Positions 7,036 through 63,239 of a stretch of 64,000 bases of DNA are shown piece after piece. Position numbers and translations under genes: made by a program. The stretch covers positions 248,001 to 312,000 of the forward strand of contig NZ_LXVX01000012.1 of NCBI RefSeq assembly GCF_001650725.1, written 5' to 3'. This stretch comes from Sphingobium sp. TCM1. GTDB taxonomy: Bacteria > Pseudomonadota > Alphaproteobacteria > Sphingomonadales > Sphingomonadaceae. The stretch's first letter is position 1. Every line of letters starts with the position of its first letter. Under the pieces are notes generated by a model. The model worked only from the letters and a program-made list of their open reading frames with translations. It searched no databases and was not told where the DNA came from.

Positions 7036-9213
7036 ATGCGCCACATCACAATCGAAACCGGCGATGATGGTATCGCCATCCTGACGCTGGACAATGCCGA
7101 CGAAAGCATGAACGTCGTTTCGGAAGCATGGCTATCGGAAATGACCGCGGCCATTGCGACGATCAAAGCCGACGACGCCATCAAGGGACTGGTCATCACT
7201 TCGGCCAAGAAAGCGTTCATGGCGGGCGCTGACCTGAAACTGCTGGTCGACGGTTATGGAACGCTGACGCGGGCGGAGGCCTATGCGTTCAGCCAGTCGG
7301 CCACCGCCATGCATCGCGCGCTGGAAACGATGGGCAAGCCCGTCGCCGCCGCACTGAACGGCCTGTGCCTGGGCGGCGGTTTCGAATTGGCGCTGGCCTG
7401 CCATTATCGCGTGCTGGTGGACGATCCCAAGGCCGTCGTCGGCCTGCCGGAGGTGAATGTCGGCCTGCTTCCCGGCTCGGGCGGCACGCAGCGGCTGCCG
7501 CGCATCGCTGGCGTCAAAACGGCGCTCGATCTGCTACTGTCAGGCCGTTCGGTGAAGCCCGCCGATGCGTTGAAGCTGCGGATCGTCGATGCCGTGGTGC
7601 CGGCGGAACAATTGATCGAAAAGGCCAAGGCATTGGTCGCCGCGGCCCCGGATGTCGAACGCGTCTGGGACAAGAAAGGCTTCGCCCTGCCCGAATCGCG
7701 TGGGATGGTCCTGCCCGAATCCGCCGCGATGTTCACCGCGGCGACAGCGGGCGCCATCGGCAAGGCTGGCTATAATCTGCCCGCACCTGCGGCCATCCTG
7801 TCCTGCGTGTTCGAGGGCGTGCAATTGCCGTTCGATCGGGCGCTGTCGGTCGAAAGTAAATATTTCGCGCTGCTGCTGACCGATCCGGTTGCCCGCAACA
7901 TCATCCGCACCAGTTTCATTTCCAAGCAGGCTGCGGAAAAGGGCGCCCGCCGTCCCAAGGGGATCGACAAAAGTTCGGTGCGCAAGATCGGTGTGCTGGG
8001 CGCAGGCATGATGGGGGCGGGCATCGCCTTGGTCGCAGCGCAGGCCGGCATCGAGGTCGTGCTGATCGACCGCGACATCCCGTCGGCGCAGAAGGGCAAG
8101 GACTATGCCGTCAAAATATTGGGCAAGGCGGTCGAGAAGGGCGGCATGGCACAGGATGCGTGCGACGTCATACTCGCGCGCATCCTGGCCACCGACGACT
8201 ATGCGCCGCTGTCGGATGTCGACCTGATCGTCGAGGCGGTGTTCGAGGATGTCGCGATCAAGGCGGAAGTCACCAAGCGGGCCGAGGCGGTCATGCCGTC
8301 GTCCGCGATCTTCGCGACCAATACATCGACCCTGCCGATCACCAATCTGGCTCAGGCGTCGGACCGTCCGGATCAGTTCATCGGCTTGCATTTCTTCTCG
8401 CCGGTCGATCGGATGGGGCTGGTCGAAGTCATCATGGGCAAGCAGACCAGCCCGGAGACGCTCGCCAAAAGCCTGGATTTCATCGCGCAGATCCGCAAGA
8501 CGCCGATCGTCGTCAATGACAGCCGCGGCTTTTACACGAGCCGGGTGTTCCAAATGCTGATTAACGAAGGCGCCGCGATGCTGGCCGATGGCGTCGAGCC
8601 GGCACGGATCGAAAATGCGGCGAAATCGGCCGGCTTCCCGGTCGGTCCGCTCGCTTTGCTTGATGAGGTTACGCTGGACCTGCCGATCAAGATCGTGGAT
8701 CAGGCTATCGCGCAGGAGGGGACGTCTTTCGTGCCGCCCGCCGGCATGCCTGCGATGTACCGGATGCGCGACGCCGGTCGCACCAGCCGCAAGGCGGGCG
8801 GCGCCTTCTACGACTATCCCGAAGGGGGTACGAAGCATCTGTGGCCCGGCCTGGCTGAGTTGTTTCCGCCAAAAGCGGAGCAGCCGGACCTCGCAGAACT
8901 CAAGCAACGCCTGCTCTATGCGCAGGCGATGGAGACGATCCGCTGCCTCGAAGAAGGCGTGCTGGAAACGCCCGAAGATGCCGATCTGGGCGCCGCCTTC
9001 GGCTGGGGATTCCCGATGTGGACAGGCGGGACGATCAGCTATGTCGACACCATTGGAATCGCCCGGTTCGTGGCAGAATCCGACCGGATGGCGCAGCTGT
9101 ACGGGCCGCGCTTCGCGCCGTCTTCCTGGCTGCGTGACAAGGCGGCGAGGGGTGAGCCCTTCTACCCCGCCAAGGACGTCGCCGCGACGAAGGAAGCCGA
9201 ATGCGCCGCCTGA
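7036..9213 (+). CDS. Bifunctional enoyl-CoA hydratase / 3-hydroxyacyl-CoA dehydrogenase
   Basis: FadB/FadJ-type protein of 725 residues. The N-terminal crotonase domain carries an oxyanion-hole glycine run (GLCLGGGFELALA) and a second Glu in LPEVNVGLLPG, matching the two catalytic glutamates of hydratases. The NAD-binding start GVLGAGMMGAGIA near residue 320 opens the dehydrogenase half, with HFFSPVDRMGLVEV following. It performs hydration and oxidation in beta-oxidation and would feed the thiolase upstream. It overlaps the next gene by 13 bp. Confidence 0.94.
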   Translation: MRHITIETGDDGIAILTLDNADESMNVVSEAWLSEMTAAIATIKADDAIKGLVITSAKKAFMAGADLKLLVDGYGTLTRAEAYAFSQSATAMHRALETMGKPVAAALNGLCLGGGFELALACHYRVLVDDPKAVVGLPEVNVGLLPGSGGTQRLPRIAGVKTALDLLLSGRSVKPADALKLRIVDAVVPAEQLIEKAKALVAAAPDVERVWDKKGFALPESRGMVLPESAAMFTAATAGAIGKAGYNLPAPAAILSCVFEGVQLPFDRALSVESKYFALLLTDPVARNIIRTSFISKQAAEKGARRPKGIDKSSVRKIGVLGAGMMGAGIALVAAQAGIEVVLIDRDIPSAQKGKDYAVKILGKAVEKGGMAQDACDVILARILATDDYAPLSDVDLIVEAVFEDVAIKAEVTKRAEAVMPSSAIFATNTSTLPITNLAQASDRPDQFIGLHFFSPVDRMGLVEVIMGKQTSPETLAKSLDFIAQIRKTPIVVNDSRGFYTSRVFQMLINEGAAMLADGVEPARIENAAKSAGFPVGPLALLDEVTLDLPIKIVDQAIAQEGTSFVPPAGMPAMYRMRDAGRTSRKAGGAFYDYPEGGTKHLWPGLAELFPPKAEQPDLAELKQRLLYAQAMETIRCLEEGVLETPEDADLGAAFGWGFPMWTGGTISYVDTIGIARFVAESDRMAQLYGPRFAPSSWLRDKAARGEPFYPAKDVAATKEAECAA

Positions 9214-10358
9214 TCTTCGAACCAGAGCACGAACAGTTCCGCGACAGCGTCCGGCGTTTCATGGAAACCGAAATCGGTCCCCATGCCGAGCGCTGGCGCG
9301 AGGCGGGACAGGTCGATCGGGAGGCCTATACGAAGGCCGGCGCGCAAGGTTTCCTTTGCACCTGGGCGGACGAGACTTATGGCGGCGCCGGCATTGACGA
9401 TTTCCGCTTTGAACAGATCATCATCGAGGAGAATATGCGCCACGGCGACATAGGCTTCTATATCAATCTGCACAGCGATCTCGTCGCGCCCTACATCGCC
9501 AAGCTCGGATCCGATGCCCAGAAAAGGCGCTTCATGCCGGGCATCGTCAGCGGGGAGACGATCCTGGCGGTCGCGATGACCGAACCATCGACCGGCAGCG
9601 ACCTCGCGGGCATGAAGACACGGGCCGAGGACAAGGGCGATCACTGGCTGCTGAACGGCGCCAAGACCTACATTTCCAACGGCATATTGGCCGACCTGGT
9701 GATCGTGGCGGCGCGTACCGACCCCCATTCGCGCCATGGTCTCGGGCTGTTTCTGATCGAGCGGGGGATGGAAGGGTTTGAGCGCGGGCGCAAGCTCGCC
9801 AAGATGGGCCTGAAGTCGCAGGATACCGCCGAACTGTTCTTTACCGACGTCAAAGTGCCGAAGGAAAACATCCTGGGCGATCCGACGCAAGGCTTCCGAT
9901 ATCTGGCGCGTTTGTTGGCGCAAGAACGGCTGGTAGCGGCCATCGGGTTCATGGCGACCGCGCAGACAGCTTTCGACCTGACGCTGGACTATGTGAAGGA
10001 TCGCAAGGCATTTGGAAAGCCGATCGGCGCGTTCCAGAACAGCCGGTTCAAGATGGCGCAGATGCGCGCCGAACTGGATGCGATCCAGACCTATGTCGAC
10101 CAGTGCGTGGTGCTTCTCAATGCGGGCGAACTGACGGCGGAGGACGCTTCGGCGGCGAAACTGCTGGCGAGCGAGCTGGAAGGCCGGGTGATGGACGACT
10201 GTGTCCAGCTGCATGGCGGGGCGGGCTATATGGACGAATATCGCATCAGCCGCATGTATAGCGACGCGCGGATCAGCCGGATATTCGCCGGGACAAGCGA
10301 GATCATGCTTGAGATCATCGGACGCGGCCTTGGCCTAGACGAACGCAAGCTGGGTTAG
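9201..10358 (+). CDS. Acyl-CoA dehydrogenase
   Basis: FAD-dependent acyl-CoA dehydrogenase of 385 residues. The middle-domain motif AMTEPSTGSDLAGM and the C-terminal signatures DRKAFGKPIGAFQ and QLHGGAGYMDEY are clear. At the position where medium-chain enzymes carry the catalytic Glu (YEGTS) this protein has FAGTS, so the base must lie elsewhere, as in the long-chain and isovaleryl-type enzymes. The start overlaps the fadB-like gene end and AAGGAAG precedes it. It probably introduces the alpha-beta double bond of the side-chain cycle. Confidence 0.93.
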   Translation: MRRLIFEPEHEQFRDSVRRFMETEIGPHAERWREAGQVDREAYTKAGAQGFLCTWADETYGGAGIDDFRFEQIIIEENMRHGDIGFYINLHSDLVAPYIAKLGSDAQKRRFMPGIVSGETILAVAMTEPSTGSDLAGMKTRAEDKGDHWLLNGAKTYISNGILADLVIVAARTDPHSRHGLGLFLIERGMEGFERGRKLAKMGLKSQDTAELFFTDVKVPKENILGDPTQGFRYLARLLAQERLVAAIGFMATAQTAFDLTLDYVKDRKAFGKPIGAFQNSRFKMAQMRAELDAIQTYVDQCVVLLNAGELTAEDASAAKLLASELEGRVMDDCVQLHGGAGYMDEYRISRMYSDARISRIFAGTSEIMLEIIGRGLGLDERKLG

Positions 10359-10397
10359 GCCCGCCAGATACCCAGGTAATTTCATGGAGAAAGAAAA

Positions 10398-11225
10398 ATG
10401 TCAGTTCTGACGGGCAAGACCGCGCTGGTTTCGGGGTCCGGCAGGGGCATCGGCAAGGCGATCGCCCTGAAACTTGCCAGAGCGGGCGCCAATATAGTCG
10501 TAAACGACCTGGACGAGGATGTGGCACAGCAAAGTGCCGAAGCAATCCGGGCGCTGGGCGTTGAAGCGGCCGTTCTTTCGGGCGATGTCACAGCCCCCGA
10601 TTTTGGCGATCGTTTCGTACAGGCTGCGGTCGATACTTTCGGCGGCATCGACATCATCGTCAATAATGCGGGCTATGCCTGGGACAGCGTGATCCAGAAG
10701 ACGACCGACGAACAATGGGCGGCGATGATCGATGTCCATCTGAATGCGCCCTTCCGCATCCTGCGCGCGGCTCAGCCGATCATCGCCGCCGCAGCAAAGG
10801 CGGAAATGGCGGCGGGCGGAAGGGCGCGGCGGCGAACCATCGTGAATATCTCTTCCGTGGCCGGGCTGGGCGGTAATCCGGGGCAGGCGGGCTATGCGGC
10901 GGGCAAGGCGGCGATCGTGGGCCTAACCAAGACGCTGTGCAAGGAATGGGGTCGCTATAATGTGACGGCGAACGCCATCGCCTTCGGCGCCATCATGACC
11001 CGCATGACGGCTGGCGAAGCCGGCAAGTCGACCATCACCATGAAGGGGCAGGAGATCAAGGCGGGCGTCAGCCAGGAGATTTTGGAGAGCATGGAGCGGG
11101 GCATACCGCTCGGCCGCGCGGGCACCCCGGATGAAGCCGCAGGGGCCATCTATCTGCTCTGCCTGCCGGAAGCGGACTATATTTCCGGGCAGGTCATCAC
11201 CGTCGGCGGTGGCTGGACGCTTTAG
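10398..11225 (+). CDS. SDR-family oxidoreductase (multifunctional-protein-2-like)
   Basis: Short-chain dehydrogenase of 275 residues. The cofactor motif is SGSGRGIG rather than TGxxxGIG, followed by NNAG, ISSVAG with the catalytic Ser, and YAAGK. The loop around residue 130, rich in Ala/Arg, is the kind seen in 3-hydroxyacyl-CoA dehydrogenase-type SDRs acting on bulky CoA esters. GGAG lies upstream of the ATG. It is the last gene of the plus-strand beta-oxidation operon and converges on the SnoaL-like gene 13 bp away. Confidence 0.9.
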   Translation: MSVLTGKTALVSGSGRGIGKAIALKLARAGANIVVNDLDEDVAQQSAEAIRALGVEAAVLSGDVTAPDFGDRFVQAAVDTFGGIDIIVNNAGYAWDSVIQKTTDEQWAAMIDVHLNAPFRILRAAQPIIAAAAKAEMAAGGRARRRTIVNISSVAGLGGNPGQAGYAAGKAAIVGLTKTLCKEWGRYNVTANAIAFGAIMTRMTAGEAGKSTITMKGQEIKAGVSQEILESMERGIPLGRAGTPDEAAGAIYLLCLPEADYISGQVITVGGGWTL

Positions 11226-55972: not shown

Positions 55973-56046
55973 GCGGGTGTAGCTCAATGGTAGAGCAGCA
56001 GCTTCCCAAGCTGACGACGGGGGTTCGATTCCCCTCACCCGCTCCA
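55973..56046 (+). tRNA. tRNA-Gly (anticodon CCC), island integration target
   Basis: 74 nt including encoded CCA. GCGGGTG pairs with CACCCGC, the anticodon loop is TTCCCAA, and the T-arm loop is TTCGATT. A TTGACA box lies at 55932-55937. The last 18 bases are repeated at 61734-61751, so the tRNA 3' end is the attachment site of the adjacent island and was rebuilt on integration. Confidence 0.95.
56029..56046 (+). repeat. Left attachment site (attL core)
   Basis: TTCCCCTCACCCGCTCCA, the 3' end of tRNA-Gly including CCA. Confidence 0.9.
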
Positions 56047-56158
56047 ATCCCCTGTCCGCAGACGTTCGCATTCGTCTAGACAAACCCCAAAAATCCAAGG
56101 TATTTAGCGGCTATCAGGCCGCAAGCGTTCACCCGCGTTCGTGTTCAGCCACCAGCCG

Positions 56159-56236
56159 CTGGGGGTACGATTGGGGGGTATTTGCAAAATGGCCGAATCG
56201 ATACCCCCAGCGTTGGGGGTATCTTTGGGGGGAAAC
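56159..56236 (+). repeat. Left arm-type repeats of the island
   Basis: A cluster of GGGGGTA units: 56161-56167, 56174-56180, an inverted copy at about 56202, 56214-56220, and a degenerate copy at about 56226. They lie between the attL core and the integrase gene, the usual place for integrase arm sites, and may also regulate the integrase promoter. Confidence 0.6.
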
Positions 56237-56255
56237 CCCGGAAAGGCTGGCGAAT

Positions 56256-57488
56256 ATGGCTCTGACTGACATCACAATCCGCAATGCTAAGCCCGGCGCA
56301 AAGGCGATCAAGTTGGCGGACGGCGGCGGCATGTTCCTGCTGATCACCCCGGCAGGTGGCAAGCTATGGCGGTTGAAATATCGCGTCGATGGAAGCGAGA
56401 AGCTGCTGGCTATCGGAGCCTATCCCGAAATCGGGCTTGGGGAAGCGCGCAGGCGTCGGGAGGAAGCGCGAGAACTGATCGCCCTTGGCAAAGACCCGTC
56501 ACGCGAGAAGCAACGTGACAAGGTGCGGGCGCGCATACAGGCAGCGGACACGTTCAAGGCAATCTGCGATGAGTTTTGCGAAAAGCGCAGGCGCGACGGT
56601 ACAAAAGGCTGGGCACCCGCCACGGCAATTCGCAGCGAATATCTGCTATCACTGGTTTGCGGCTCCATCGGCAAGTTACCGATAGGCGAGATTGAACCCG
56701 CAGATGTGCTGGCGGCCATTCGGCGCATTGAAGGCAAAGGTAAGCTGGAAAGCGCGCGGCGCAGCCTACAACTGGCTGGCGCGGTATTTCGATATGCGGT
56801 GGCGACGGCGCGGCTGGCATCGGACCCTACCCGCGATTTGCGCGGCGCACTGACTGCCCCAACCGTAACCCATTATGGCGCGATCACAGACGCAAAGAAG
56901 GTTGGCCAATTATTGCGGGCAATAGATGACTATGAGGGCAGCGGCATAACCAAGCTGGCCTTGCAGATTGCGCCCCATGTTTTCGTCCGCCCCGGCGAAC
57001 TGCGCCATGCCGAATGGAGCGAGTTTGATCTGGACGGCGCACTCTGGATCATTCCGGCGGGCAAGATGAAAATGCGCAAGGCGCACCACGTTCCGCTTTC
57101 ACGCCAAGCCATCGCCCTGTTCCGCGAAGTGCAAGGCGTTACCGGCCCTTCGGGTTATGTGTTCCCTTCCATCCGGTCCCGCGCGCGCCCGATGAGCGAA
57201 AACACTATCAATGCCAGTTTGCGGCGATTGGGATATGCCAGCGATGAAATGACGGGGCATGGGTTTCGCGCCATGGCTTCAACGCTACTTAATGAAAGCG
57301 GCAAGTGGCATCCAGACGCCATCGAACGTGCGCTGGCCCATGGAGACAGCGACAAGGTGCGCGCGGCCTATCATCGGGGGGCGCACTGGAACGAGCGCGT
57401 GGACATGGCGCAATGGTGGTCGGACTATCTCGACCAGCTACGGAAAGGGGCGGACATTGTGGCCTTCCCTAACCGTGAAGCCGTTTGA
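56256..57488 (+). CDS. int: Tyrosine integrase (DUF4102 / P4 type)
   Basis: 410 residues, complete. The N-terminal DUF4102 arm-binding domain (DGGGMFLLITPAGGKLWRLK, IGAYPEIGLGEARR) is followed by a core-binding domain and the catalytic domain: Arg in RPGELRHAEW near residue 250, HxxR in GHGFRAMA, a later His, and Tyr in AAYHR near 372. It integrates and excises the island at tRNA-Gly. GGAAAGG precedes the ATG. It is related to the truncated integrase by tRNA-Glu but clearly a separate lineage. Confidence 0.94.
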   Translation: MALTDITIRNAKPGAKAIKLADGGGMFLLITPAGGKLWRLKYRVDGSEKLLAIGAYPEIGLGEARRRREEARELIALGKDPSREKQRDKVRARIQAADTFKAICDEFCEKRRRDGTKGWAPATAIRSEYLLSLVCGSIGKLPIGEIEPADVLAAIRRIEGKGKLESARRSLQLAGAVFRYAVATARLASDPTRDLRGALTAPTVTHYGAITDAKKVGQLLRAIDDYEGSGITKLALQIAPHVFVRPGELRHAEWSEFDLDGALWIIPAGKMKMRKAHHVPLSRQAIALFREVQGVTGPSGYVFPSIRSRARPMSENTINASLRRLGYASDEMTGHGFRAMASTLLNESGKWHPDAIERALAHGDSDKVRAAYHRGAHWNERVDMAQWWSDYLDQLRKGADIVAFPNREAV

Positions 57489-57555
57489 TCCGCTTGGCGA
57501 TGCGGACGACTGGCGTTAAGCCCCCCAATCGAATGTGTGAGGGGCAACAGCGTAA

Positions 57556-60396
57556 ATGGATATTCAAGGCTATCTGAGTGAAATACGCGCGCTTTACGGC
57601 AGCGGCCAGACAACCGAACATAGTTTTCGCCCCGCCCTAGCCAAGCTGTTTGCTTCCATCGACGTCGCACTCACTGTCATCAATGAGCCAAAGCACCTCA
57701 CCGATGTTGGCGCGCCTGATTTCGTGTTCAACCGGGCTGCCGTGGCCATCGGCTGGTGCGAGGCCAAGGATATTGGCAAGGACGTGCGAAAATTCGCCGC
57801 CACCGATTACAGCAAAGCCCAGAAAGAGCGCTACAAAAAGGGGCTGCCCAACCTGATCTACACCAACGGGCTGGACTTTGAATTCATCCGCGATGGCGAG
57901 GCGGTGGATTTCATCAGCATCGCCGATGCCGCCCCGACGCTGCCCGCGCACCCCGCCAATTTCACCGCGCTGGAAAACCGACTGCGCGACTTCGCGCATG
58001 TTACCCCGCTTAGCGTCACCTCATCGGCAAAGCTGGCCGCGATGATGGCGGGCAAGGCAGCAATCATAAAGGACATAATGGGCCGCGCCCTCGTGGCGGA
58101 TATGAAGGCCCAGGATTCCACCGGCACGGCAACCGACCTGATCGGCCAGTATGAGGCCTTCAAGGCCAGCCTGATCCACGACATCACCGTTGAGGAATTT
58201 GCCGACATCTATGCCGAAACCATCGCTTATGGCCTGTTCGCCGCGCGCCTGCATGATGAGACGCCCGACAGCTTCACCCGTGCCGAGGCGCTGGACCTGT
58301 TGCCCAAGACTAACCCGTTCCTGCGCGAACTGTTCATCTACATCGCAGGCCCCAATCTGGACGAACGCCTGCGCCGCGTGATCGATGAGCTTTGTAATGT
58401 GTTCTGCGCCACCGACATGGACAAGGTGCTGCGCAATTTCGGCAAGATCACGGCACGGCAAGACCCCTTCCTTCATTTTTATGAGGATTTTCTGGCCGAA
58501 TATAACCCCGCCAAGCGCAAGGCGCGCGGTGTGTGGTATACGCCCGAACCCGTAGTGAATTTCATCGTGCGCGCGGTGGACGAGGTGCTGAAAACCGAAT
58601 TTGGCCTGCCAGACGGCTTGGCCGACACCTCCAAAATCACCATCGATTGGGACACCGGCCAGAACGATCCCAAGACCGGCAAGCCCGCGTATATCAAGAA
58701 GGAAGTCCACCGCGTCCAGATTCTGGACCCCGCCACCGGCACCGGCACTTTTCTGGCCGAAGTGGTAAAGCTGGTTTCCGAACGGATCAAGGGCGTCGCA
58801 CCGGGGCAGCTATCGGCCTATATCGAGCGTGACCTAATCCCGCGCCTGCATGGATTCGAGCTGCTGATGGCCAGCTATGCCATGTGCCACATGAAGCTGG
58901 ACATGATCCTGACCCGGCTGGGCTACAAGCCATCAGCCAAGCCGCCGCGCCTTGGGGTTTACCTCACCAACAGCCTTGAGGAAGGCGAGCGGGTGGAACA
59001 GACCCTGTTCGGCCTGTCCCGCGCCATTGCCAACGAGGCGAAAGCCGCAAGCGACATCAAGCGCCAGACCCCCATCATGTGCGTGATCGGCAACCCGCCC
59101 TATTCGGGCATCAGCCAGAACAACGGCAAATGGATCGCCGACAAGATCGAGGATTACAAATATGTCGATGGCGTTCACTTCGGCGAGCGCAAGCACTGGT
59201 TACAAGATGATTATGTGAAGTTCCTGCGTCTTGCCGAACACATGATTGAACAGAACGGTGAAGGTGTGCTGGGGTTCATCACTAACCACGGCTATCTTGA
59301 TAACCCCACCTTTCGCGGGATGCGCTGGCATCTGATGCAGACCTTTGATCGCATCCATGTGCTGGACCTGCACGGCAATTCCAACAAAAAGGAAGTCTGC
59401 CCCGACGGCTCGCCAGACAAAAATGTGTTCGACATCATGCAGGGCGTGGCGATCATCATTGCCGTGAAACACCGGCGCAATGGCAAGGCACCCAAGCCGC
59501 TGGCAGAGGTGCGCCACGGCGAACTATGGGGCACCCGCGATGGCAAATACGCCCGGCTTTGGGATGGCACTACCGCCAGCCTTGCCGCCACTGCTCTGCC
59601 TCACAAGGCCCCGCACCACCCTTTCGTGTTGCGTGATTATGATGTGGAGGCCGCATACGCCAAGGGCTTCTCGGTGGCGGAACTGATGCCTGCTAATGTC
59701 ACCGGGATTGTCACTATGGGCGACGGTTTCATCATTGCTGACACCCCTGCCCAACTGAAGGCGAACATTGACTACCTGCTCAATTCCGGATGCAGCGCCG
59801 CCGAATTGAAAGTACGTTATGGGCTGGGCAAAAATTACGCCGATTGGGCAGTGAATGGACGATCAAAACTGACCTTGGATGAGGCCCTGATCGTCCCAAT
59901 TTCCTACCGGCCATTCGACTCGCGCTGGACGTATTTCGACAACCGCCTGCTCTGGAGATGGCGTGAAAGTGTGATGCGGCACCTCACAAAGTCTAGCAAT
60001 TTTAACCTCATGATGACGCGCCAAACAAAGGACGAAATTGGCGCACTGGTCGGCGATAGCATCGCGGCCCACAAGGCATTTAGCGCGTACGACATCACCT
60101 ATAACATGCCTCTCTACCTCTATCCCGAGGAAGGCACGCTAGATCAGACCATCCGCGTCAATTTCGACCTCAAGCTATTCGCCCAAATCCGCAAGGCGGC
60201 TGGACTGACCGGGACGCCAGCCGTGCCCGATGGCACCGATGCCTTCCGCGAGGCCACAGCCGAGGCCCGCCCCGATGAGGTCAAGGTGTTCGATTACATC
60301 TATGGCGTGCTGCACAGTCCAGCCTACCGCGCCACCTATGTCGAGTTCCTGAAAATCGACTTTATAGGAGCGCACCGCCTCTTCCCTGAATTGTGA
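57556..60396 (+). CDS. Single-chain restriction-modification enzyme (type IIG / ISP-like without helicase)
   Basis: 946 residues. An N-terminal PD-(D/E)xK nuclease site is visible as P54-D55 and E69-A70-K71. A helical coupler leads to the gamma-class adenine methylase, starting RKARGVWYTPEPVVNFIVR, with SAM motif DPATGTGTF near residue 391 and catalytic NPPY at 513-516. The C-terminal third (from about 700) resembles the LlaBIII/ISP-type specificity domain. Type ISP enzymes have a helicase between nuclease and methylase; it is absent here, so this is a shorter IIG-like form. It would both methylate and cut DNA, protecting the cell from phage. Confidence 0.88.
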   Translation: MDIQGYLSEIRALYGSGQTTEHSFRPALAKLFASIDVALTVINEPKHLTDVGAPDFVFNRAAVAIGWCEAKDIGKDVRKFAATDYSKAQKERYKKGLPNLIYTNGLDFEFIRDGEAVDFISIADAAPTLPAHPANFTALENRLRDFAHVTPLSVTSSAKLAAMMAGKAAIIKDIMGRALVADMKAQDSTGTATDLIGQYEAFKASLIHDITVEEFADIYAETIAYGLFAARLHDETPDSFTRAEALDLLPKTNPFLRELFIYIAGPNLDERLRRVIDELCNVFCATDMDKVLRNFGKITARQDPFLHFYEDFLAEYNPAKRKARGVWYTPEPVVNFIVRAVDEVLKTEFGLPDGLADTSKITIDWDTGQNDPKTGKPAYIKKEVHRVQILDPATGTGTFLAEVVKLVSERIKGVAPGQLSAYIERDLIPRLHGFELLMASYAMCHMKLDMILTRLGYKPSAKPPRLGVYLTNSLEEGERVEQTLFGLSRAIANEAKAASDIKRQTPIMCVIGNPPYSGISQNNGKWIADKIEDYKYVDGVHFGERKHWLQDDYVKFLRLAEHMIEQNGEGVLGFITNHGYLDNPTFRGMRWHLMQTFDRIHVLDLHGNSNKKEVCPDGSPDKNVFDIMQGVAIIIAVKHRRNGKAPKPLAEVRHGELWGTRDGKYARLWDGTTASLAATALPHKAPHHPFVLRDYDVEAAYAKGFSVAELMPANVTGIVTMGDGFIIADTPAQLKANIDYLLNSGCSAAELKVRYGLGKNYADWAVNGRSKLTLDEALIVPISYRPFDSRWTYFDNRLLWRWRESVMRHLTKSSNFNLMMTRQTKDEIGALVGDSIAAHKAFSAYDITYNMPLYLYPEEGTLDQTIRVNFDLKLFAQIRKAAGLTGTPAVPDGTDAFREATAEARPDEVKVFDYIYGVLHSPAYRATYVEFLKIDFIGAHRLFPEL

Positions 60397-60417
60397 CAAT
60401 CGAAAGGACCGATAGCC

Positions 60418-61542
60418 ATGGCAAAACACAATGCCGCAAACGCCCGAATCAAGCGGGAATACTTCACCTACCTGAAGGAAGCGAAGCGCCGGGATGAAGC
60501 ATCGATCGATGCCGTTGCCAAGGCGCTGGCGCGCTTTGAAGAGGCGAACGCGCGCAAGGACTTCAAGACATTTCACCGGGCGCAGGCGGTAGCCTTCAAG
60601 CACAAGCTGGACAAGCAACCGGCGGTCCGCACCGGCAAGCCGCTGAGCCGGGCAACGGTCAATTCCACCCTGTCCGCCTTGCGCGCGTTCTTTGTCTGGC
60701 TGGCGGGGCAACCCGGTTACAAATCCCGCCTGTCCTATGCCGATGCCGACTATTTCAACCTGGCCGAAAAGGACGTGCGGATTGCCAAGGCGGTGCGGCA
60801 CAAGGCATTTCCCACGCTGGAGCAGGTCCACCATGTCATAGCCGCCATACCAGCGGGGTCCGCGATTGAATTGCGCAACCGGGCGCTGGTGGCCTTCGCG
60901 CTGTTGACTGGCGCGCGCGACGGGGCGCTGGCATCGTTCCGGCTCAAGCACGTTGATCTGGTGCAGGGCTGTGTCAATCAGGATGCCCGCGACGTTAAAA
61001 CCAAGGCCAGCAAAACGTTTTCAACGTGGTTTTTCCCAGTTGGCGGCGACGCGCTCAAGATTGTGCAAGACTGGTGCTACTATCTGCGCACCGTCTTGCT
61101 CTGGGGCGATGACGACCCGCTGTTTCCACCGACGCAAATCGGACTTGGCGAAAATGGGGGTTTTGCGCCGGTAGGGCTTCGCCGGGGCGAATGCTGGCAA
61201 GGGGCCGGACCGATCCGCGACATTTTCCGAAAGGCATTCGAGGCGGCTGGACTGCCCTATTTCAACCCCCATTCGTTCCGCGATACGCTCGTGCAGCACG
61301 GGGAGCGGGTTTGCACGACGATCGAAGCGTTCAAGGCGTGGTCGCAGAATCTAGGGCATGAACGGGTGATGACGACGCTTACCAGCTACGGCACCGTTGC
61401 CCCGCACCGACAGGCAGAATTAATCCGGGGCATGGGGGCAGGAATCGGCGCGGCTGGCAAAGTGGCCGCGAGCATAGACCCGTCCATGGTCGCACAAGTC
61501 ATGGCAGCCATGCAGACGCTGACAGGTGACGGGCTTGGGTGA
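60418..61542 (+). CDS. Second tyrosine recombinase of the island
   Basis: 374 residues: an N-terminal SAM-like core-binding domain (AVAKALARFEEANARKDF, LSALRAFFVWLAG) and a catalytic domain. Arg is in LTGARDGAL near 166, HxxR in NPHSFRDTL near 284, His in NLGHERVMTTL, and Tyr in SYGTV near 323, so the active site is complete. It lacks DUF4102 and is not like the first integrase. It starts 21 bp after the restriction enzyme stop and is probably co-transcribed. Its role is unknown: it could assist excision or act on other sites. Confidence 0.88.
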   Translation: MAKHNAANARIKREYFTYLKEAKRRDEASIDAVAKALARFEEANARKDFKTFHRAQAVAFKHKLDKQPAVRTGKPLSRATVNSTLSALRAFFVWLAGQPGYKSRLSYADADYFNLAEKDVRIAKAVRHKAFPTLEQVHHVIAAIPAGSAIELRNRALVAFALLTGARDGALASFRLKHVDLVQGCVNQDARDVKTKASKTFSTWFFPVGGDALKIVQDWCYYLRTVLLWGDDDPLFPPTQIGLGENGGFAPVGLRRGECWQGAGPIRDIFRKAFEAAGLPYFNPHSFRDTLVQHGERVCTTIEAFKAWSQNLGHERVMTTLTSYGTVAPHRQAELIRGMGAGIGAAGKVAASIDPSMVAQVMAAMQTLTGDGLG

Positions 61543-61652
61543 TCAATTGGGTCCATTCCCGAATCAGACCGTCGAGCCTGCGCTTCTGTGCGGCTTGGAA
61601 TTGGCAGTTCGGCTGCGCTCTGACCGCCACCATTCACCTCTAGCCAGCGCGT

Positions 61653-61673
61653 CTGGGGGTATGATTGGGGGTA
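61653..61673 (+). repeat. Right arm-type repeat of the island
   Basis: CTGGGGGTATGATTGGGGG and then TA, the direct counterpart of the left arm at 56159-56180 with one substitution and one base fewer. The rest of 61543-61733 shows no gene. Confidence 0.65.
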
Positions 61674-61733
61674 CTTTGAAAAATAAAGGCCGAAGAAATG
61701 GCTAAATACCGACATTAACTGGACATTTCGCGG

Positions 61734-61751
61734 TTCCCCTCACCCGCTCCA
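61734..61751 (+). repeat. Right attachment site (attR core)
   Basis: Exact second copy of the 18-bp core. Here it is not followed or preceded by tRNA sequence, so it marks the island end. Confidence 0.9.
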
Positions 61752-61815
61752 CAGGCCGAAATCACCCATCTTCCTGCTCGACCGCGCGCATGGGTGCAGG
61801 TAGGGCTGGCCTTGC

Positions 61816-62538
61816 CTAATAGCGCTCGCCACCGCACAGGATGCGCCCTGTGCCGCGATTGTCGACGGTGCAGGCGGGCTTGCCGCCGACCGTCACATCG
61901 CCCGATCCGGTCGCCACGATTTTCGCTGTCACCTCCGTCGTCAGGATGACGCTGCCGGGGCCATCATTGCTGATGCTGGCCTGTCGGACGCGCAGTGGTT
62001 CCGCAGCGACCGCTCCGGGGCCGTTGACGCGAATATTCGCCACGCCGGCCCGGCCCGTCAGAGTCGCGCGTCCGCCACCCGCCAGCATCAGGTCGATCCG
62101 GTCGAGCTGAACATCCCCCACTCTCACATCGCCATTGCCGCCGAGGATGATCTGTCCCGCCAGCCCCTTCATCCGGTTGACGGCAATGGAGCCGCCTCCG
62201 GTCAGCACCACGCGCTCGATCATGCCCGTCGACAGCCGCAACGTGGCTGCGCCACCGCTTTTCTCACCGGGACGGGGACGGTCCATGGTCACCGTGAGCA
62301 GTCGTCCCGACACGTCGACTTTCAGCCGGTCGAGCGCACCTTGATCGCCTTCCGCCCGCGCCGACGCGCCGGTCCCGGTAGTGAGCACTACGATGACGGG
62401 CGCGTCCACGCGGATCGCGTCGAAACTCGTGATGGTGAAACCCCGCGTCGCCGCGCCCGCAGGAGCGGCGATCGCCAGGCTCGCCGTAATCAGGGTATGC
62501 AGCGCGCTTCGCCCGGTCCCACGCCGTTGGTCGTGCAT
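61816..62538 (-). CDS. DUF2807 (head GIN domain) exported protein
   Basis: 240 residues with a signal peptide ending near APAGAA. Right-handed beta-helix-like repeats follow (VVLTGGGSIAVNRM, IDLMLAGGGRATLTG, NDGPGSVILT), the pattern of DUF2807. It ends with a two-Cys segment (PACTVDNRGTGRILCGG). It overlaps the preceding paralogue by 49 bp. The function of this envelope family is unknown. Confidence 0.85.
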   Translation of the reverse strand: MHDQRRGTGRSALHTLITASLAIAAPAGAATRGFTITSFDAIRVDAPVIVVLTTGTGASARAEGDQGALDRLKVDVSGRLLTVTMDRPRPGEKSGGAATLRLSTGMIERVVLTGGGSIAVNRMKGLAGQIILGGNGDVRVGDVQLDRIDLMLAGGGRATLTGRAGVANIRVNGPGAVAAEPLRVRQASISNDGPGSVILTTEVTAKIVATGSGDVTVGGKPACTVDNRGTGRILCGGERY

Positions 62539-63239
62539 TGCGCCTTGCCTTTCACCGTCACGTCGCCTGGTCCCATGATGCTGATAGCAACCTTCCCGTC
62601 GGAGGCAAAGTCGATGTCGCCCGCGCCCAGTATCGAAACGTCGGCGCTGCCGACCTTCAGCGCTTCGCCGTCAATGTCGCCGGCGCCGGTGATCGACAGC
62701 TTCGCCGTGTCCGCCGTGCCGGAGATTTTCACCGATCCCGCGCCGGTGATATCGGCCGACAGCGACTTGAGCCTCACCATGCCGATGCGGAAGTCACCGG
62801 CGCCGGTCAGCGACAGGTCCAGCCTTTCGCCCTCCGCCTTGTCTAGGTCGAAATCGCCTGCCCCGGTCAGGTCGGCGGCCCGGATGGCAGGCATGGTGAT
62901 GCGGATTGTCGCGCCCTTGTCGCCATTCCTGCGCCCCCAGTTCCAGTCACCCTTGGATTTGCGACCGATCACCAGCTTGTCGTCCTTGACGCTGATGGCG
63001 AGGTCCGCCACCGACTTGGGATCGCCCTCCGCCTTGATCGAGAAATCGGGCGCGATGGTCACGGCGACATTGTCGGGACCGGTCGCTTCGATGGCGGTGA
63101 AGTCCTTGAGGGCGGACCAGTCCTGCGCGGTGCGCGCGACATCCTCGGCGGAGGGTGACTTTTCGGTGCGCGAGCAGGCGCTGGTCGACAGGCTCAGTCC
63201 GGCAATGACAAGCGCGAAAAGCGGAAGGGGGAGCGGCAT
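62490..63239 (-). CDS. DUF2807 protein, probable lipoprotein
   Basis: 249 residues. The N-terminus MPLPLPLFALVIAGLSL with Cys in STSAC suggests lipid attachment, although the lipobox is weak. Repeats of the form TGAGDF/DL appear at least five times (LTGAGDFDL, LTGAGDFRI, ITGAGSVKI, ITGAGDIDG, LGAGDIDF), each one turn of a beta-helix. It ends with the same two-Cys TTNGVGPGEARC segment as its neighbour, showing a tandem duplication. Confidence 0.87.
   Translation of the reverse strand: MPLPLPLFALVIAGLSLSTSACSRTEKSPSAEDVARTAQDWSALKDFTAIEATGPDNVAVTIAPDFSIKAEGDPKSVADLAISVKDDKLVIGRKSKGDWNWGRRNGDKGATIRITMPAIRAADLTGAGDFDLDKAEGERLDLSLTGAGDFRIGMVRLKSLSADITGAGSVKISGTADTAKLSITGAGDIDGEALKVGSADVSILGAGDIDFASDGKVAISIMGPGDVTVKGKAQCTTNGVGPGEARCIP

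Follow-up and report, generated by a model that had tools for sequence, protein, structure and literature searches.

A small tRNA-Gly island of Sphingobium sp. TCM1, very probably shortened by an internal deletion, and its widespread family of tRNA-integrated islands often carrying restriction-modification systems

The short island at a tRNA-Gly gene in the 64,000-nucleotide stretch of Sphingobium sp. TCM1 DNA analyzed here (the window) very probably belongs, as a copy with an internal deletion, to a family of small islands that is widespread, sits in tRNA genes, and often carries restriction-modification (R-M) systems. An earlier note, made from the sequence alone, had described the island as a complete and self-contained defense island, possibly a standalone mobile anti-phage module, whose only cargo was one R-M polypeptide and a second recombinase. 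The three open reading frames were as that note had them, an integrase (int1), the R-M polypeptide and a second tyrosine recombinase (rec2), and they are listed here with the other features of the locus.

55973..56046, plus strand: tRNA-Gly(CCC), the integration target, still intact (ARAGORN)
56029..56046, plus strand: left 18-bp repeat, the attL core, at the tRNA 3' end
56161..56180, plus strand: left GGGGGTA pair, arm-type sites 13 bp apart (motif search; relatives)
56202..56221, strand not assigned: single GGGGGTA sites before int1, inverted at 56202 and direct at 56215
56256..57488, plus strand: int1, P4-type tyrosine integrase, 410 aa (Pfam Arm-DNA-bind_3, Phage_int_M, Phage_integrase)
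57556..60396, plus strand: type IIG-like R-M polypeptide, 946 aa, truncated (Pfam, PADLOC, alignment to relatives)
60363..60368, strand not assigned: junction of the deletion, which takes out about 1.83 kb compared with L076
60368..60417, plus strand: remnant of the 3' end of an HTH gene (DNA alignment to L069, L073, L076 and L124)
60418..61542, plus strand: rec2, XerC/D-like tyrosine recombinase, 374 aa, catalytic residues conserved
61655..61673, plus strand: right GGGGGTA pair, arm-type sites 12 bp apart (motif search; relatives)
61734..61751, plus strand: right 18-bp repeat, the attR core

The island is a genuine insertion, and both of its ends are known. The exact 18-bp repeat that had been noted at both ends, one copy being the 3' end of the tRNA gene, lies at 56029-56046 and 61734-61751, and it forms part of a 21-nt repeat with one mismatch whose second copy spans 61731-61751. 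An empty site, proposed at the time as the check to make, is present in a genome of the same species (G044), in which the tRNA-Gly 3' end is joined directly to window position 61752; this genome matches the window flanks over 5320 bp upstream and 2270 bp downstream with 99.5% identity, and the 324 and 400 bp around the join are identical to the window. The arm repeats reported inside each end also held up, as GGGGGTA-N5/6-GGGGGTA matches the 64-kb window at two places, 56161 and 61655, and gave no match in 100 dinucleotide-preserving shuffles. Both ends could be seen in five tRNA-Gly islands (the window, L069 from Sphingomonas turrisvirgatae, L073, L076, and L124), and in each the pairs are 13 bp apart at the left and 12 bp apart at the right. 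Islands at tRNA-Phe have a similar arm layout with GGGGGCC at both ends, the left end having been viewed in L077 only. With direct repeats of the tRNA 3' end, a matching empty site, and arm-binding, core-binding and catalytic domains in the integrase that adjoins the tRNA, the element is a tRNA-integrated island of the P4-type integrase kind. Among its three open reading frames there are none of the replication, packaging or capsid-redirecting genes of a phage satellite, nor the relaxase or conjugation genes of an integrative mobilizable or conjugative element.

A search of genome contigs with rec2 returned 53 loci, and these, together with the window and the loci in G040, G051, and G076, made up the 57 that we examined. 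The 53 loci are mostly from Sphingomonadales, with others from Rhizobiales and Rhodobacterales and two from Gammaproteobacteria (orders taken from organism names); rec2 islands are found mainly in Alphaproteobacteria, at many tRNA genes. Targets adjoining the integrase include tRNA-Gly, Leu, Phe, Thr, Tyr, Ser, and Met, to which the class sample described below adds tRNA-SeC, tRNA-Asn, and tmRNA. The fuller layout of these islands is tRNA, int1, variable gene, small HTH_17 gene, HTH gene, rec2, cargo, arm sites, and attR. Among the 51 loci with enough upstream sequence, the HTH gene (about 158 aa, with five cysteines invariant in all 10 proteins aligned) lies directly 5' of rec2 in 46, and the small HTH gene (about 55 aa, excisionase-like) is present in 45. 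The variable gene of about 310 aa is present in at most 34 of the 51, an upper figure because query genes chosen by position match themselves (the queries included genes picked by position, several for the variable gene and one each for the small HTH gene, in L097, L099, L101, L104, and L107). A tyrosine integrase lies within 7 kb of rec2 in 41 of 46 loci, with L089 and L093 included on partial matches only; the integrases of L084, L086, and L112 were missed by the int1 profile, those of the latter two being Phage_integrase by Pfam. The HTH gene is absent before rec2 in five loci (the window, L105, L108, L115, and L126). In L105, int1 and rec2 are fused into one reading frame.

All 15 aligned rec2 proteins conserve R167, K196, K199, H285, R288, H314, and Y324, and the R, K, H-xx-R, H, Y set comprises the residues expected of an active tyrosine recombinase. 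A profile of 15 rec2 proteins matched a single solved chain at E <= 0.001, that of the tyrosine recombinase XerA (E 0.00098). The role of the small HTH gene is assigned from its HTH_17 match only, and this gene had no PDB match at E <= 1. The variable gene matched nothing in Pfam or PHROG in either of the members scanned, and its model, though confident (pLDDT 86), had no PDB match at E <= 0.001. The HTH protein of L124 has as its best PHROG match a terminase small subunit (E 4.5e-7), over the DNA-binding part only. We also looked for a phage or plasmid that might serve as a transfer helper and could name none: none of 50,697 phage records (E <= 1e-10) contained a rec2 relative, and the four plasmid records that did, out of 72,556 (E <= 1e-20), all had <60% identity. 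Among the open-licence papers listed in our searches, none describes this island family.

Cargo is exchanged between otherwise conserved parts of these islands. In the pairs of Gly-group and Phe-group islands compared, the left (tRNA to int1), middle (HTH genes and rec2) and right (arm sites and attR) blocks are conserved, and the DNA between the blocks does not align. The R-M genes adjoining rec2, as identified by PADLOC and Pfam, are of type IIG, type I, type III, GmrSD (type IV), type II, and MmeI-like kinds. Of 74 rec2 loci, 46 have an R-M match no more than 7.5 kb away from rec2, comprising 33 of the first 57 (the window included) and 13 of 17 from a class sample, several of the class-sample matches being weak (25-30% identity). 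The queries were 30 R-M genes from the first 57 loci (two of them, L078 9174 and L088 11748, labeled from their neighbors), and the class sample is therefore only partly independent. It came from 385 genomes drawn evenly, among which 22 had rec2 at E <= 1e-30; outside the window genome there were 24 places, of which we used 17, and the seven dropped (G293, the second in G264, G417, two in G095, G226, and G229) were left out partly for short contigs or low identity. Matches to these queries in the control stretches, which are shorter than the 1129 kb of the 74 rec2 loci, numbered 0 in 30 host flanks upstream of the tRNA (144 kb), one in 60 other loci of the genus (199 kb), namely G056 at the same tRNA-Gly, and one in seven int1 islands without rec2 (101 kb). 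No R-M match was found in 28 of the 74 rec2 loci, some of which are cut by a contig end.

This association raises the alternative that the two HTH genes and rec2 form a dedicated R-M vehicle, in which rec2 swaps R-M cassettes or, with the HTH protein, times their expression after entry; if true, the family would be an integron-like platform for R-M systems entering new hosts. The module does stay beside R-M systems of types I, II/IIG, III, and IV while the integrases and tRNA targets vary, and in 37 of the 74 loci a same-strand R-M gene begins no more than 3 kb after rec2 stops, at a median distance of 76 bp, and in 28 of them the distance is at most 300 bp. On the other hand, the cargo is not R-M throughout, as it includes rhamnose-pathway genes (L073), a CoA-transferase (L107), a pentapeptide-repeat gene (L096), and HmaC (L091), and cargo is also located between int1 and the variable gene (L076 and L124). 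Nor did comparison of close pairs show a repeated site flanking the cargo, on which rec2 could act. The box CTTGGCG-N-GCTAAGC, located after rec2 and resembling an inverted repeat, was considered as an integron-like rec2 site and set aside; it fits the consensus of the Caulobacter-type housekeeping promoter, and a similar box precedes the solitary R-M gene of G056. We read it as a putative cargo promoter. On balance the vehicle seems to us rather unlikely, and an auxiliary role of rec2 on the element itself appears more likely than a role in cargo exchange or in the timing of R-M expression, though no site for rec2 was found.

The window island keeps int1 and rec2 in the family order at the tRNA, and has lost the small HTH_17 gene and the HTH gene of about 158 aa apart from a 3' remnant. 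The DNA from 60368 to the start of rec2 aligns with the end of the HTH gene in L069, L073, L076, and L124. In L076 (Novosphingobium olei), the two pieces that match the window sit 1.83 kb apart, and between them are the rest of the R-M gene, a 236-aa gene, the small HTH gene, and most of the HTH gene. The genes deleted near 60363-60368 are the variable gene, the small HTH_17 gene, and the HTH gene except for its 3' end. Consistent with this, a whole-genome HTH_17 search matched both small genes at the same tRNA-Gly in G040 and G051, whereas the window genome, its island included, gave no match to either. One internal deletion would explain the compact layout, and the window copy appears to be a deletion derivative rather than an intact int1-HTH-HTH-rec2 member of the family; its compactness looks like decay. 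Since the R-M reading frame runs into the deletion, with about 1.8 kb lost relative to relatives, the word "complete" in the earlier title was wrong.

The R-M protein has the Pfam domains Type_ISP_C, N6_Mtase and Eco57I, its best PADLOC match is REase_MTase_IIG PDLC03610 (E 5e-241), and the closest solved chains by sequence are LlaBIII (4xqk) and the type IIG chain 7lo5. It has 946 aa, while 117 of its 119 best relatives have at least 1000 (median 1075). Homology to these relatives stops at residue 936 (60363), and the last 10 residues are the remnant of another gene translated in a different frame. Although the N-6 methyltransferase domain and Type_ISP_C of a type IIG/ISP enzyme were both found, the latter is matched only over profile positions 1-217 of 342, and it reaches position 340 or 341 in the longer relatives P0002, P0003, P0049, and P0075. 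The deletion has removed 126 residues of the specificity domain, about a third, and with it restriction and methylation at the original site have most likely been lost; the enzyme is probably inactive or altered. The window genome holds one full match to this protein, the remaining matches falling in a single 1180-aa open reading frame on another contig.

It is nevertheless conceivable that selection maintains the shortened enzyme because it remains functional, either with a specificity that is altered or relaxed or purely as a methyltransferase. The 946-codon frame is free of stops, so expression of the shortened protein is still possible, and the nuclease-like and methyltransferase motifs are retained. 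Short forms, whether intact or not, do occur among the relatives (P0062, 940 aa, and P0086, 893 aa), and both of these are missing the end of the domain too. However, a C-terminal motif conserved in 108 of the 119 relatives is missing from the window protein, and the part lost is the best-predicted region of a family model whose overall pLDDT is only 59.5. We consider continued function of the enzyme unlikely for these reasons.

A minimal but fully functional standalone anti-phage module with two recombinases, the view closest to the earlier note, would sit well with the intact att and arm sites, the three open frames, and the apparently intact catalytic residues of int1 and rec2, but the specificity domain is cut at position 217 of 342 of its profile, both HTH genes are missing, and the remnant of one of them lies at the junction, which together leave this reading very improbable. 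The descriptions "self-contained" and "standalone module" are not supported, given the loss of 126 specificity-domain codons, the variable gene, and both HTH genes bar the remnant. Least credible, and to be given hardly any weight, is that the deletion is an assembly error: it is known from one draft assembly of 41 contigs, but the junction lies in unique coding DNA within a 519-kb contig and both sides of the island match the family layout exactly.

The same tRNA-Gly is occupied in various ways within the genus. The exact tRNA end is present in 45 of 94 genus genomes; among the 30 loci listed, an int1 homolog lies downstream in five (G000, G019, G040, G043, and G051), and the other 25 have no int1 within 1.5 kb or to the contig end. 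Together with the empty site in G044, this means that the island is not fixed core, and the suggested search of related genomes turned up alternative cargo as well, an MmeI-like enzyme in G051 (the G040 element is cut by a contig end). Because rec2 was found in only 4 of the 94 genomes, most int1 islands of the genus are without it. Siblings at this tRNA are decaying too: int1 is broken in G043 and G019, and G056 has no int1 and only an R-M gene, MmeI-like and in two frames, directly after the tRNA-Gly.

We propose the following history for the window island as an internally deleted member of the family. Int1 would have recombined an attP core with the tRNA-Gly 3' end by way of the arm sites at the two ends. 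The small HTH protein, lost here, may have helped excision; with its gene gone, the island is probably fixed, locked in at this site. The enzyme would keep its nuclease-like and methyltransferase parts, minus about a third of the specificity domain, and most likely would neither restrict nor methylate at its original site. In what is the weakest step, rec2 may be active as an auxiliary recombinase whose substrate is the element, perhaps in a circular form, and would not choose the chromosomal site, because it is found with different integrases and many tRNA targets.

The family offers a concrete, testable carrier of R-M systems that is small, tRNA-targeted, and often has a single R-M system following a conserved recombinase module. 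How such carriers may decay to remnants, which resemble compact modules if seen alone, is suggested by the window copy, by L105 and L115, and by G056 with its lone R-M gene.

Among known systems, the R-M polypeptide is like the single-polypeptide type IIG or "type ISP" enzymes (LlaBIII, 4xqk, and 7lo5), to which its methyltransferase and specificity regions match by sequence, except that the window copy is without the end of the specificity domain; the PDB match to LlaBIII covers residues 387-639 (1578-aa chain) and leaves the helicase part unmatched. P4-like satellites with defense hotspots reportedly combine a P4-type integrase with variable defense genes, as here, whereas none of the three genes of the window island is for replication, packaging or capsids. 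As with recombinase-in-trio (RIT) elements, there is more than one tyrosine recombinase per element, but the two recombinases here differ from that arrangement in having different domains and other genes between them, in insertion at a tRNA end, and in arm sites (PMC8138268). How R-M systems move, though rare in known mobile elements, is a question put in PMC4176335.

The closest described kind is that of the Pseudomonas tmRNA islands I23, I44, and I55, together with the "phage defense elements" cited in the same source (PMC12595487). These tmRNA islands carry IntY, AlpA, and defense genes; a jumbo phage is reported to move one of them, which confers fitness via its type II R-M system (PMC12595487). 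The present islands have in common with I23, I44, and I55 a terminal tyrosine integrase, a repeat of the tRNA or tmRNA 3' end, a small DNA-binding regulator (AlpA in Pseudomonas), defense cargo that includes R-M systems, and no autonomous transfer genes. The Pseudomonas islands differ in their shared region of about 18 kb at the 3' end and their single target, the tmRNA, whereas the present islands are mostly smaller, use many tRNAs, and have a second tyrosine recombinase with an HTH partner before the cargo. Defense islands at tRNA and tmRNA genes are thus a known kind, to which the rec2 island family adds a variant.

The locus L105, targeting tRNA-Gly, contains a single 403-aa ORF (7596-8807) in which residues 22-166 of int1, the P4-type tyrosine integrase of these islands, are fused to the second, XerC/D-like recombinase, rec2, from its residue 61. 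With this fusion the genes in the middle of the island have been lost a second time, independently of the loss in the window island. The fused ORF is adjoined by a type I R-M system. In the genome G056, an MmeI-like R-M gene that is split between two frames (locus L170, 1413-4414) is situated immediately 3' of tRNA-Gly; neither an integrase nor an HTH gene was found at this locus, nor were rec2 or a further copy of att, and the lone gene is possibly an end stage of island decay.

In an island of another genome, G076, the HTH gene and rec2 are separated by two minus-strand ORFs of 242 and 504 aa (L126, 6604-8833). This pair is probably an insertion sequence, given that L138, another G076 island, also has ORFs of these sizes.

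The island in the window is flanked by two tandem paralogous minus-strand genes (61816-63239), the first of which has a match in 87 of the 94 genus genomes, usually adjoining a second copy that is ~30% identical.

The right ends of tRNA-Phe islands (L077, L078, L119 and L075) have GGGGGCC arm pairs, whereas tRNA-Gly islands have GGGGGTA, with similar spacing in both. Arm sequence and integrase may have changed jointly between the two.

The variable ~310-aa protein encoded in Sphingomonas turrisvirgatae (L069, 6286-7218) and its relatives was modeled confidently (pLDDT 86), although the model had no PDB match at E <= 0.001; the protein's sequence resembles a tandem duplication. In Novosphingobium olei (L076), a 251-aa ORF 3' of rec2 (9789-10544) has matches among the defence-system models for reverse transcriptases, the best being RT_IX (E 2.3e-17).
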